DNA from: Acidiferrobacterales bacterium | Lineage (GTDB): Bacteria; Pseudomonadota; Gammaproteobacteria; Acidiferrobacterales; Sulfurifustaceae | Reading direction: 5' to 3' | NCBI GenBank assembly: GCA_919902925.1 | Contig: CAKKRZ010000107.1 | Location: 1 to 40,262, forward strand | DNA: 40,262 nucleotides | Part shown: piece by piece, positions 5,277 to 38,829 of the stretch | Layout of the letters: every line of letters starts with the position of its first letter | How positions within the stretch are numbered: the first letter of the stretch is position 1 | Made by a program: the position numbers and the translations under genes | The notes under the pieces: model-generated | The model's input: the letters and a program-made list of their open reading frames with translations, nothing else | What the model was told of the DNA's origin: nothing | Database searches by the model: none

Positions 5277-6746
5277 TCAATCAATCTTGAGCTGGTTCCA
5301 CAGATCATCCACGCGCTTTCTGATTTCCACGCTCATCTCGATCGGCTTGCCCCACGCGCGCGTGGTCTCCTGCGGCCACTTGTTGGTGGCGTCGAAGCCG
5401 ATCTTGCCGCCGAGGCTCTGTTGCGGGCTCGCAAAGTCGAGGTAATCGATCGGCGTGTTGTCCACAATCAGGGTGTCGCGTGCCGGGTCCATGCGCGTGC
5501 TCATCGCCCAGATCACGTCTTTCCAGTCGCGCGCGTTGATGTCGTCGTCCACCACGATCACGAACTTGGTATAGGTGAACTGGCGCAGGGTCGACCATAC
5601 GCCGAACATCATGCGCCGCGCATGTCCCGGGTAGCGTTTCTTGATGGCTACTACCGCCACCCGGTACGAGCACGCCTCGGGCGGCAGATAGAAATCCACG
5701 ATCTCCGGAAACTGCTTTTGCAGGATCGGGATGAACACCTCGTTCAACGCCATCGCCAGCACCGACGGCTCATCCCACGGCGAGCGGCCCATGTAGCTTG
5801 AGTGGTAAATGGGGTTGTCGCGGTGTGTGATGCGCTCGACGGTGAACACCGGGAAACGGTCCTGAGCGTTGTAGTAGCCGGTGTGGTCGCCGAACGGCCC
5901 CTCGAGCGCGGTCTCGCCCGGGTAAATGTGACCCTCGAATACGATCTCGGCACTCGCCGGGATGCTGAGTGTGCCGGAACGGTCGGTGACTACCTCGCTG
6001 CGCGCTCCGCGCAGCAGCCCGGCGAACTCGAACTCTGAGATCGTGTCCGGGATCGGTGTCACCGCCGCGAGCAGCGTCGCCGGGTCGGCACCGATGACGA
6101 CCGCGAGTGGAAACGGCTTGCCCGGGTTGGCCTCCTGGAATTCGCAGAAATCGATCGCGCCACCACGGTGGTGCAGCCAGCGCATGATCACCTTGTTCCT
6201 CTCGATCACCTGCTGGCGGTAGATGCCGATGTTCTGGCGCTCCTTGTGCGGACCCCTGGTGATGACGAGTCCGAAGGTGATGAGCCGTCCGGCATCCTCC
6301 GGCCAACAGTGCTGGATCGGGAACCGGGCGAGATCAACGTCGGGGCCCTCGATCACGTGTGTACGGCACGGCGAGTTGTCCCGCAAGCGCGGGCGTGCGT
6401 GCAGGATGCTGCGCAGCAGTGGGAAACGCTCCATCAACTCTTTTATCCCGCGCGGCAGGCGTGGTTCGCGCAGCCAGGCGAGCATCTCGCCGATCTCGCG
6501 GAGTTCCGAGATGTCCTGCCGCCCGAGCGCGGCCGCCACCCGTCGGGTCGAGCCGAACAGATTCCCGAGCAGCGGGATCGAGGAGCCCTTGGGATTCTCG
6601 AACAGCAGCGCCGGACCGTTGCGGCGCAGGGTGCGCTGGCAGATCTCGGTGATCTCCAGCGCCGGGTCAACCGGGACCAGCACGCGCTTGAATTCGCCGC
6701 GACTCTCCAGGTGATCGAGAAAATCGCGCAGGCTGGAAAAACTCAT
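5277..6746 (-). CDS. ubiD: UbiD 4-hydroxy-3-polyprenylbenzoate decarboxylase
   Basis: A 489-residue prenylated-FMN-dependent decarboxylase of ubiquinone biosynthesis, close to the usual UbiD length. Residues 170-200 hold the cofactor-binding [14 protein letters not shown] and [13 protein letters not shown], and 282-292 [12 protein letters not shown], both UbiD signatures. It is convergent with the glycosylase gene (32-base gap) and divergent from ubiT. The 87-base divergent spacer contains an FNR-type site at 6781-6794. Clustering with ubiT, ubiU and ubiV suggests a locus for quinone synthesis, although UbiD itself works with or without oxygen. Confidence 0.96.
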
Positions 6747-6780: not shown

Positions 6781-6794
6781 TTGATCCAGGTCAA
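6781..6794. promoter_or_regulatory. FNR/Anr-type site upstream of ubiT
   Basis: TTGATCCAGGTCAA matches the FNR consensus TTGAT-N4-ATCAA at nine of ten positions. A CACAAT hexamer at 6817-6822 lies about 32 bases downstream of the site centre, the class II activator geometry (site at about -41.5). That puts transcription start near 6829, only about five bases before the ubiT ATG, so ubiT may have a nearly leaderless message. The site also lies upstream of the divergent ubiD. Confidence 0.65.
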
Positions 6795-6833
6795 AGGGTT
6801 GCGGGCTGACTGCGGTCACAATCCGCGCGGTCC

Positions 6834-7418
6834 ATGAACGCCCTTGAACCCATTTTGTCGGTACCGCTCAGGCTGGTCCCGGGCGTCGTGCACGCGGAAA
6901 TTATCGCGCGCGCCTTTAACCATTTGATGCGCGGCCAGACGCTGGTCGAGCGTCTCGGCGAGCTCGACGGTCGCGTGGTCGGGATCCAAGTCGAGGATAC
7001 CGGCACGCACGTGGCCTTCCGCATTTCCGGCTCGCGGCTCGCGGCGGCGTCACCCGGGGAGGCGATGGTGCACATCCGCGGTAACCTCGCCGAGTTCCTC
7101 AAGCTCGCCACGCGCACCGAGGATCCGGACACGCTGTTCTTCCAGCGCAGGCTGGCGATCGAAGGCGACACCGAGACCGGTCTGCACGTGAAGAACCTGC
7201 TCGACGGGCTCGACTACGACTGGGACGCGCATTTCCGCGCCGTGCTGCCGGGGACGTTTGCCGCGTTGGCTAGCCGGCTGCGCCATGACTTGGGTTCATT
7301 CCTGGCAGGCCATGCCAGTAGCCGTCGCACAAATCCACCTGCGCGAGCCGCGCGATCTGCGCGCCAGCCTCGGCCGGCGCCTGCCGTCCGTCCAGCACCG
7401 CGCGAAACGACCGGATAA
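6834..7418 (+). CDS. ubiT: UbiT, SCP2-domain factor for O2-independent ubiquinone synthesis
   Basis: A 194-residue SCP2-like lipid-binding protein. ILSVPLRLVPGVV near the N-terminus and DPDTLFFQRRLAIEGDTETG around residue 100-118 match UbiT. In E. coli, UbiT works with UbiU and UbiV in anaerobic ubiquinone synthesis, both of which are encoded just downstream on the other strand. The SCP2 fold ends around residue 160; the Arg/Pro-rich tail after that lies antisense to the 3' end of ubiV (149-base overlap) and looks like a frame running on by chance. An FNR-type site precedes the gene. Confidence 0.88.
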   Translation: MNALEPILSVPLRLVPGVVHAEIIARAFNHLMRGQTLVERLGELDGRVVGIQVEDTGTHVAFRISGSRLAAASPGEAMVHIRGNLAEFLKLATRTEDPDTLFFQRRLAIEGDTETGLHVKNLLDGLDYDWDAHFRAVLPGTFAALASRLRHDLGSFLAGHASSRRTNPPARAARSARQPRPAPAVRPAPRETTG

Positions 7419-8169
7419 CCTCCGCCGTCGCGCGCGGCAGCGGCGGCGCGAGCCGCAGCACGTCCACGCCGAGCGCGCGCAGATCCTCGATCTCCCCGAG
7501 CAGGCTATAGACCGCCGCCGACTGCACCTGGATGCCGTTCACGGTCAGGAATGTTTTTTGCTCTTGGGTTTGCAGTGGCATGCCCTCGGGATAGTCGCGG
7601 CAGCGGAAACCGCAGTCGTCCTTAGGCAGGTTGTAGGCGCGCGCGGTGAAGCAGCGTGCCGAGAACGCCAACGGCAGCCGCCCGAAGGCCAGCATCTCGG
7701 TCTCGATGCCGGCCGGCCGCGCGGCCAGAATCTTCTCCAGCATCGTGCGCGACAACTCGAACGGGACCACCCAGCGGCGGGCGCCAGCCTCGGCCATGAG
7801 TGCCAGCGCCTCGAGGTTATAGACGTTGATGTGCGGGCCGCTCACGAAGCGTTTGCCGTGAGCCATGTTCACGGCCCCCAGATCGTTCGCCTCGACGGCA
7901 AAGCGGCCGTTCTCGATCACGCGCCGCATGGCCGAGACCTCGGACTCGGCCTCGATCAGCGTCAACGTCGACAGCACTACTTCTTTCCCCGTGGCCGCCA
8001 GACGTTCACCGATTTCCAGCCAGTCCTCGGGCCGGAGCGCGCGGCGCTTGGAGCACACGGTCTCGCCGAGATAGACGATGTCCACGGGCAGGTCTTCCAC
8101 CTCGCGGTAGTAGTCAAAGACCGTTCCGCGGTCCCAGTAGTACTGGATAGGGCCTAAAGACAGTTTCAA
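7270..8169 (-). CDS. ubiV: UbiV, Fe-S U32-family protein for O2-independent hydroxylation
   Basis: A 299-residue U32-peptidase-family protein that, with UbiU, carries out O2-independent hydroxylation of the ubiquinone ring. Cysteines C39 (GETVCSKRRAL), C173, C186 and C190 have the spacing of the four [4Fe-4S] ligands of E. coli UbiV (C-x12-C-x3-C for the last three). EMLAFGRLPLAFSARC is a family signature, and the C-terminal LCDGYWHGLPGM shows the frame is real to its end. The gene follows ubiU on the minus strand after 71 bases containing a REP-like palindrome. Its 3' end overlaps convergent ubiT. Confidence 0.95.
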   Translation of the reverse strand: MKLSLGPIQYYWDRGTVFDYYREVEDLPVDIVYLGETVCSKRRALRPEDWLEIGERLAATGKEVVLSTLTLIEAESEVSAMRRVIENGRFAVEANDLGAVNMAHGKRFVSGPHINVYNLEALALMAEAGARRWVVPFELSRTMLEKILAARPAGIETEMLAFGRLPLAFSARCFTARAYNLPKDDCGFRCRDYPEGMPLQTQEQKTFLTVNGIQVQSAAVYSLLGEIEDLRALGVDVLRLAPPLPRATAEVIRSFRAVLDGRQAPAEAGAQIARLAQVDLCDGYWHGLPGMNPSHGAAG

Positions 8170-8240
8170 GCTGGAAGCTCCAGGCTACAAGCCAACACCG
8201 CGCGCCGCTGGCCACTGGTAGCTTGTGGCTTGTAGCTGCG
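8166..8240. repeat. REP-like palindromic sequence between ubiU and ubiV
   Basis: The ubiU-ubiV spacer contains GCTACAAGCC (8184-8193) and its exact reverse complement (8227-8236), flanked by further AGCTTG/CAAGCT variants. This is typical of extragenic palindromes scattered in gammaproteobacterial genomes. As RNA it would fold into a stem that could attenuate or protect the transcript between the two genes. No other copy is seen in the window. Confidence 0.5.
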
Positions 8241-9287
8241 TTATTGCCATGGTCGGTTATATGCCCCGAGGGTATGGGTACTGCCCTCGGCCATGCGATC
8301 GAGCGCCGCGATCCACTCATGGCGCGGAGTGAAACCTGACGGATTTTTCAGGCACTCGTCGATTGCCGCGCGCAGCACGCGCGTGATCTGGGCGACGTAG
8401 GCGGGGCTGCGCTGGCGCCCCTCGACCTTGATCGCCGCCACTCCGGCCTCGTAGAGTTGTGGCAGGATGTCGAGCGTGCTCAGGCTGGTCGGTTCCTCGA
8501 GCGCGTAAAAGGGTTTATCGGCGACCTCGGCCGTGCCTGCGCATTCTTCACTCGTGGTATCCGTGCATCCCTGTACAGCAAAGCGGCCCTTGCACAGCGT
8601 GGGGTAGCCGGCCGGTTCACCCTGGCGATACACGTCGATCAGCACGCCGTTCAGCCGTGAGCGGCGCGAGGTCGCGTCTTCCTCCCAGCGCACGGCCTTG
8701 GCCGGCGAGCACACGCCGCTCAGGTTCGGCGACTCGCCGGTAACATAGGACGACAGCTGGCAGCGACCCTCGACCATCACGCACAGGCTGCCAAAACCGA
8801 ACACCTCAATCTCGACCTTCACACGCTTGAGGATGTTCTTCACCTGCGCGAGCGACAACACACGCGGCAACACCACCCGTTGCACACCGAAGTGGCGTGC
8901 ATAGAAATCGATGGCCTCGAAATTGGTGGCCGAGCCCTGCACGGAGAGGTGCAGGCGCTGCTGCGGGTGGCGGCGCGAGAGATAACGCAGCAGGCCGAGA
9001 TCGGCGACGATCACCGCATCCGCGCCCAGCTCCACGGCGGCATCGGAGGCGCGGCACGCACCCTCCCACTGCAATGGCGAGGGGTTGGTGTTGAGCGCGA
9101 CCAGCACCTTGGCGCCGGCGGCGTGCGCGTAGTCACGCCCCTTGCGTGCTTCATCCTCGCTGAAGTTCAGCCCCGGGAAATTGCGCGCATTGCTCGCGCC
9201 GCGAAAGCCCAGGTAGACGGCATCGGCGCCATTATCGATCGCGGCCTTGAGTGCGGGCAGCGTGCCCGCCGGACAGATGAGTTCCAT
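8241..9287 (-). CDS. ubiU: UbiU, Fe-S U32-family protein for O2-independent hydroxylation
   Basis: A 348-residue U32-family partner of UbiV. C169, C176, C193 and C232 match the numbering and spacing of the [4Fe-4S] ligands of E. coli UbiU (SLCVMVEGRC, SGVCSPAKAVRW, YPTLCKGRF). The N-terminus MELICPAGTLPALKAAIDNG is typical. The protein is somewhat longer than E. coli UbiU at its C-terminus. A perfect FNR palindrome lies 160 bases upstream, consistent with induction when oxygen is scarce. It is the first gene of the ubiU-ubiV transcript. Confidence 0.96.
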   Translation of the reverse strand: MELICPAGTLPALKAAIDNGADAVYLGFRGASNARNFPGLNFSEDEARKGRDYAHAAGAKVLVALNTNPSPLQWEGACRASDAAVELGADAVIVADLGLLRYLSRRHPQQRLHLSVQGSATNFEAIDFYARHFGVQRVVLPRVLSLAQVKNILKRVKVEIEVFGFGSLCVMVEGRCQLSSYVTGESPNLSGVCSPAKAVRWEEDATSRRSRLNGVLIDVYRQGEPAGYPTLCKGRFAVQGCTDTTSEECAGTAEVADKPFYALEEPTSLSTLDILPQLYEAGVAAIKVEGRQRSPAYVAQITRVLRAAIDECLKNPSGFTPRHEWIAALDRMAEGSTHTLGAYNRPWQ

Positions 9288-9446
9288 GAAATACCGAAAA
9301 TCGTGAAGGTCAATCGTGATACGAGAGCAAAACAGCGGATTGAGCGGATTTCCACGGTGATTGCCCGGCTTTGCCGTCCTGCCGCCGCATACGCCCGGCT
9401 AGTCGGCTTGCGTGGTGATACTAAACTGCATTTCGTGTTCCGAACC

Positions 9447-9460
9447 TTGATTTGGATCAA
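9447..9460 (-). promoter_or_regulatory. Perfect FNR/Anr box upstream of ubiU
   Basis: TTGATTTGGATCAA is a perfect match to TTGAT-N4-ATCAA. On the minus strand TAGTAT (9418-9423) is centred 33 bases downstream of the box centre and would serve as the -10 of a class II FNR promoter, with a start near 9411 and a leader of about 125 bases to ubiU. No other gene lies between the site and ubiU. Confidence 0.75.
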
Positions 9461-29533: not shown

Positions 29534-29547
29534 TTGATCCCGGTCAA
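29534..29547. promoter_or_regulatory. FNR/Anr-type site between DUF4912 and hibernation factor
   Basis: TTGATCCCGGTCAA matches TTGAT-N4-ATCAA at nine of ten positions. The 215-base spacer is divergent. On the plus strand the position expected for a class II -10 holds only a weak CAAATT (29570-29575), and the minus strand shows none, so direction is uncertain. Confidence 0.5.
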
Positions 29548-32874: not shown

Positions 32875-32888
32875 TTGATGGGGGTCAA
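32875..32888. promoter_or_regulatory. FNR/Anr-type site between pgi-glgA and glgC
   Basis: TTGATGGGGGTCAA matches TTGAT-N4-ATCAA at nine of ten positions. On the minus strand TAGTAT (32848-32853) is centred 31 bases from the site, the class II geometry and the same -10 hexamer as at ubiU, so pgi-glgA is the likelier target. On the plus strand TATAGT (32923-32928) is a separate candidate -10 for glgC, 44 bases from the site centre. Confidence 0.6.
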
Positions 32889-38361: not shown

Positions 38362-38829
38362 CTATTTTCGTTGCAGCGCACGTTGGTATGCTGCCTCTAC
38401 CCAATCGCCGAGATTGGCGTAACCATTGTCATTAACCCAATCGTATGTTTTGAAGCCAGTCCATCCAAGCTCCACAAACGGATCTTTTCCTTTTGCATCA
38501 GTGCGTCGGTTTTGATCTTGTTGGTTGTGAATGTAGATACCGATCAAACCATTTCCTTTTTCCCAGCTGTATTTTATTTCGTATTGAACATATGGGCGGC
38601 TAGCGGTTTCGGCACCGATTAGAACAACCGTTACGGTTGAACCTTCCATCTGTCGGCGAATCCACTGCTTTACAGCGTCTTCGCCCTTTCTCTGTACTTC
38701 TTCCCATGCGGCGGCATCCCAGAAGCCGGCAGATTCCCGGTCTGGCTTAGTAACCCAACTGTTCCGTACCTGACTTGCCCGCCAGTTATCTCGTTCGTAG
38801 TGAAAGCTGAAGAAAACGCGACGTGCCAT
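38362..38829 (-). CDS. ThsB-like TIR-domain protein (cassette gene)
   Basis: A 155-residue single-domain TIR-like protein (PF08937 type). RRVFFSFHYERDNWRASQVR closely follows the N-terminus of ThsB of Thoeris anti-phage systems, VTVVLIGAETASRPYVQYEI holds the core strand and E84 at the likely catalytic position, and SWEKGNGLIGIYIHNQQD is a family signature. Such TIR proteins make cyclic ADP-ribose-like signals from NAD+ or consume NAD+ on infection. It begins four bases after the membrane-protein stop within the same cassette. No ThsA is present, so the membrane protein may be its effector; that is inference. Confidence 0.87.
   Translation of the reverse strand: MARRVFFSFHYERDNWRASQVRNSWVTKPDRESAGFWDAAAWEEVQRKGEDAVKQWIRRQMEGSTVTVVLIGAETASRPYVQYEIKYSWEKGNGLIGIYIHNQQDQNRRTDAKGKDPFVELGWTGFKTYDWVNDNGYANLGDWVEAAYQRALQRK

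Follow-up and report, generated by a model that had tools for sequence, protein, structure and literature searches.

Oxygen-independent ubiquinone synthesis and its control have been described in several Pseudomonadota. In Escherichia coli, site changes have shown that FNR activates ubiUV and one ubiT promoter through the sites F1 and F2 (PMC10470549). In Pseudomonas aeruginosa, transcription of ubiUVT is controlled by Anr (PMC10247376). According to a survey of Pseudomonadota, 1362 out of 1566 ubiTUV triplets (87%) have a candidate FNR site upstream of ubiU, ubiT or both, from which positive control was inferred (PMC11707229). The ligands of the [4Fe-4S] cluster in UbiU are C169, C176, C193 and C232, and the UbiV cluster follows the pattern CXnCX12CX3C (PMC6747719). 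FNR-type control of ubiTUV is thus already published, and the locus described here is an ordinary, well-supported new example of it. We analyzed a stretch of 40,262 nucleotides (henceforth the window) from a bacterium of the family Sulfurifustaceae, together with the rest of its genome and a set of related loci. The features of the ubi region are listed in Table 1.

Table 1. Genes, FNR-type boxes and -10-like elements of the ubi region in the window
Feature	Position	Strand	Details
ubiD-like decarboxylase gene	5277..6746	minus	divergent from ubiT; NF008175 782.2 bits; TIGR00148 above cut-off
FNR-type box before ubiT	6781-6794	+	TTGATCCAGGTCAA; 9/10, one mismatch; ubiD-ubiT intergenic region
-10-like hexamer (ubiT)	6817-6822	+	CACAAT; centre at +32 from the box; 4/6 against TATAAT
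ubiT	6834..7418	+	194 aa; SCP2 domain (PF02036); NCBIfam NF047962 128.3 bits, cut-off 46.9
ubiV	7270..8169	minus	299 aa; TTG start; NCBIfam NF047965 393.9 bits, cut-off 275
ubiU	8241..9287	minus	348 aa; U32 family; NCBIfam NF047963 515.6 bits, cut-off 440
-10-like region (ubiU)	9418..9425	minus	TTTAGT (9425-9420) at +31 or TAGTAT (9423-9418) at +33; each 4/6
FNR-type box before ubiU-ubiV	9447-9460	minus	TTGATTTGGATCAA; perfect, 0 mismatches; minus-strand reading TTGATCCAAATCAA

We assessed the gene identities with family models. UbiT, UbiU and UbiV all exceed the cut-offs of their equivalog models, whereas the UbiD-like protein scores slightly below its equivalog cut-off (788 bits) and passes the family model. 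The UbiU cluster cysteines C169, C176, C193 and C232 are all present, in positions identical to those of the E. coli protein, and are invariant in the alignment, and the translation of ubiV contains a C-x12-C-x3-C stretch, CFTARAYNLPKDDCGFRC. The genome also encodes two oxygen-dependent Ubi hydroxylases above cut-off and has four COX1-family matches, so an oxygen switch between ubiquinone pathways makes sense in this organism. The proteins have some features of their own. In UbiU, 17 residues containing two additional cysteines are inserted at about residues 239-257, just after the cluster cysteine C232; in the near relatives G001 and G010, the insertion has 12 residues and no cysteine. UbiT ends in a proline- and arginine-rich extension of about 30 residues that is absent from the UbiT of relatives (155-170 aa). 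The 3' ends of the ubiT and ubiV genes overlap by 149 bp (7270-7418); the same junction in close relatives mostly shows short gaps or overlaps.

We searched for FNR-type sites with the palindrome TTGATNNNNATCAA (TTGAT-N4-ATCAA), allowing few mismatches. The ubiT box departs from this consensus at one position and the ubiU-side box at none; their centres lie 46 bp from the ubiT ATG (6834) and 166 bp from the ubiU start (9287, minus strand), respectively. Such sites are rare by chance. The 40-kb window contains five sites with ≤1 mismatch, against an expected 0.47 (shuffle mean; the largest shuffle count was 3, and none of 100 shuffles reached 5). By pattern counts, the whole genome (2.23 Mb) contains 10 perfect boxes and 105 with ≤1 mismatch, and the reversed pattern, a lenient control that includes the rare word CTAG, gave none and 10, respectively. 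Both boxes are confirmed as real sequence signals. An earlier note on this DNA had named the three ubi genes and placed a one-mismatch box and a perfect box before their two transcription units, and all of this is borne out.

Other boxes in the window and the genome were recorded. A one-mismatch box at 32875-32888 occupies the region between the minus-strand pgi gene, which it precedes by 48 bp, and the plus-strand glgC gene. We rejected FNR-type control of pgi or the glycogen genes from this box, as no site matching at least 9/10 precedes pgi in 16 relatives. Another one-mismatch box (29534-29547) precedes a Rho_N/DUF4912-like gene of the glycogen cluster. Elsewhere in the genome, contig C32 (locus L003, 1501-1514) has a perfect box with a COX15/CtaA gene on one side and, on the other, a COX2-type gene followed by a COX1-family gene; this box likely marks a further regulon member.

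Fourteen loci of the family, that of the window among them, were compared. We counted boxes with a match of 9/10 or better that lie no more than 150 bp from ubiT, or no more than 200 bp from ubiU or from the first gene of its unit. The ubiT gene is preceded by such a box in 11 of the 14 loci (shuffle mean 0.18, maximum 2), and the gene that opens the ubiU unit likewise in 11 (shuffle mean 0.09, maximum 3). A box within 200 bp of ubiU itself occurs in one locus only, the window's, because an extra gene intervenes in the relatives. The conservation that the earlier note had proposed to check is therefore found before ubiT and before the ubiU unit, but not directly in front of ubiU. In the near relative G001, the ubiU-side site matches at 8/10 and lies 784 bp before ubiU, and in other lineages, for example in most Thiobacillus loci, no box of at least 8/10 was found. 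These comparisons bear on whether the boxes might be chance palindromes without a regulatory role. Palindromes of this kind do occur inside genes (a one-mismatch site at 38534 in the coding region of a TIR-like ORF and a perfect one within a long ORF of contig C6). However, boxes precede the same genes in relatives far more often than in shuffles and stand at a fixed distance from the -10 elements there, which makes coincidence highly improbable.

The spacing between boxes and -10-like elements was examined in the box-aligned family loci. On average, TATAAT is matched best at +32 in the ubiU unit (4.18 of 6; baseline 1.31, sd 0.49) and at +33 before ubiT (3.55; baseline 1.20, sd 0.36); we note that 8 of the 14 loci belong to one genus that drives these peaks, so that the counts are not independent. 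Exact placement of a 5/6 hexamer, at +32 for the ubiU unit or at +33 for ubiT, is seen in seven or eight loci, which all belong to this single genus, the seven relatives with the +33 hexamer before ubiT all being among them, and other genera have -10-like hexamers at +31 or +32. A spacing of 32-33 bp from the box centre, seen mainly in one genus, supports a predicted class II activator site. Taken alone, the evidence from the window's own -10 elements is weak because a 4/6 match near that position is not rare by chance. The earlier note had read class II geometry from -10-like hexamers 32-33 bases from each box: the hexamers exist and the spacing in relatives fits, but those of the window match at 4/6 only, and the two options before ubiU lie at +31 and +33.

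From this geometry, transcription of ubiT is predicted to start near 6829, about 5 nt before the ATG, and that of ubiU near 9412, which would give a leader of about 125 nt. The ubiT mRNA is possibly nearly leaderless, and G001, G007 and G003 look alike in this respect. We considered a structured leader or an sRNA-type switch before ubiU and rejected it, as the folding energies were no better than those of shuffled sequences (z of +0.47 and +1.09); the predicted leader had no match in Rfam.

The box before ubiT sits in the common 87-bp ubiD-ubiT intergenic region, and an effect on ubiD is therefore possible. The box might act mainly or additionally on ubiD, perhaps as a site of repression: its centre lies about 41 bp from the start of this gene, and in the family loci where both genes could be read, ubiD and ubiT diverge from starts separated by 85-112 bp. 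Against this, the conserved -10 element at +33 in relatives points toward ubiT, and the ubiT-side site of E. coli activates ubiT. We regard a main or additional role at ubiD as improbable.

The genome has five HTH_Crp_2 matches, and three of its CRP/FNR proteins, on contigs C192, C184 and C181, have FNR-like features. The C192 protein, encoded after hemN, combines an N-terminal C-x2-C-x5-C pattern and an internal cysteine with an ETVSR recognition helix at the contig end. The contig end truncates the protein, yet its score of 223.6 bits on the Fnr model falls only slightly short of the cut-off (228). It thus has the three N-terminal cysteines, the internal cysteine, the E--SR helix and the model match expected of an FNR/ANR protein. 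The C184 protein has an ETVSR helix and unusual N-terminal cysteines (C-x-C-x4-C-x2-C), and in the C181 protein the cysteines follow C-x2-C-x5-C, but the helix reads ETVCR. A perfect FNR-type box is centred about 176 bp upstream of the C184 gene, suggesting autoregulation.

Because three such proteins are encoded, a box does not reveal the identity of its binder, and FNR, ANR and DNR share the same box. The boxes could be real and yet be read mainly by another CRP/FNR protein (C184, C181 or a nitric-oxide-type regulator), in which case the trigger would not simply be oxygen. The number of HTH_Crp_2 matches leaves room for this, as do the helix, the cysteine arrangement and the own upstream box of C184 and the cysteine pattern of C181, despite the helix of the latter. 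The C192 protein is nonetheless the sole close match to the Fnr model (the others score 90.9 and 78.7 bits), and the proven factor for these genes is Fnr in E. coli or Anr in P. aeruginosa. We therefore consider another reader unlikely; the boxes point to an FNR-type activator that is most likely the C192 protein. The statement in the earlier note that the regulation can be read directly from the DNA was overstated, given the weak -10 elements of the window and the three candidate regulators.

Our preferred reading, to which we assign a probability of roughly 0.85, is that both boxes are predicted class II sites for an oxygen-responsive activator of the CRP/FNR family, most likely the C192 protein. 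As oxygen falls, the [4Fe-4S] dimer would bind both boxes, whose centres would lie about 41.5 bp upstream of the respective transcription starts (ubiT and ubiU-ubiV), and would recruit RNA polymerase as a class II activator. Activation would switch on oxygen-independent ubiquinone hydroxylation, and the oxygen-dependent hydroxylases would serve in air. Each unit needs its own site because ubiT and ubiUV converge tail to tail. FNR-type control of both units, as the earlier note had claimed, agrees with the family models, the FNR/ANR-like regulator and the conservation in relatives, although some of its points were overstated and the concept is not new.

The gene that separates box and ubiU in the relatives was also analyzed. 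Most of the family relatives have a TatD-linked radical SAM gene directly before ubiU (TIGR04038; 249.4 bits against a cut-off of 129.7), and the ubiU-side box sits ahead of this gene, about 670-920 bp before ubiU. Some relatives have a gene for a small CxxCH (cytochrome-like) protein further upstream, with a box of its own. The window has no TIGR04038 gene before ubiU, and its box faces ubiU directly. We searched the window's genome (87.6% complete) with the radical SAM protein of a relative and found nothing, and the best score with the TIGR04038 model was 23.8 bits, whereas most relatives exceed the cut-off. The gene is missing at this contiguous locus and, at the given completeness, likely also elsewhere in the genome. 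In the UbiU+UbiV tree, the window is placed with low support values (81/64, 83/83) among lineages that keep the gene. Loss in the window's lineage is the simpler reading because of this grouping. The box regions themselves were compared by eye, and no similarity was found between the ubiU-side box region of the window and the region before the radical SAM gene of relatives outside the box; homology of the two regions was rejected.

The arrangement was also counted in a larger set of loci. We selected 75 loci from named genomes by the similarity of their UbiU to that of the window, requiring enough upstream sequence. In 43 of them, a TIGR04038 gene and/or a YhcC/MnmL-like TIGR01212 gene lies directly before ubiUV on the same strand. 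A literature search of limited scope returned no paper that connects ubiUV with radical SAM genes of these kinds, although such a paper may still exist. A modest reading of the linkage is shared anaerobic expression. A bolder and improbable proposal is that, in the order and in related Gammaproteobacteria, the FNR-controlled ubiUV unit includes, directly before ubiU, one or two radical SAM genes whose products may be accessory to the UbiU-UbiV hydroxylase or to its anaerobic context, and that the lineage of the window lost these genes and kept a box in front of ubiU. The recurring linkage is a lead toward unknown pathway partners.

We compared the locus to the described systems. It resembles that of E. 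coli in having the same genes, one FNR-type site per unit and two separately controlled units; the E. coli sites lie 33-36 nt before the reported start sites (PMC10470549). The two differ in layout, as the E. coli units are divergent and have one common intergenic region whereas ubiT and ubiUV of the window converge. The E. coli sites are degenerate (TTGATTTAAGGCAG, TTGATTTATACCGC), whereas each unit of the window has a stronger, separate palindrome, and E. coli additionally has an FNR-independent ubiT promoter (PMC10470549). With P. aeruginosa, the window would share Anr-type control of transcription of the oxygen-independent ubiquinone genes. There, however, a single ubiUVT operon is present and the small RNA SicX acts on its leader, whereas the window has two units and a predicted ubiU leader without structure beyond that of shuffled sequences (PMC10247376). 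The genome fits the pattern of the Pseudomonadota survey, and with its strong palindromes it adds an uncultured lineage to the evidence that places oxygen-independent ubiquinone synthesis in the FNR regulon. In the survey, the scan covered the 450 bp ahead of each ubi gene (PMC11707229), whereas the ubiU-side box of this family is mostly 670-920 bp away and would be missed because the radical SAM gene intervenes. A scan limited to a set distance upstream of ubiU can thus overlook the promoter of an operon that begins with other genes, and published site counts in such families may be too low.
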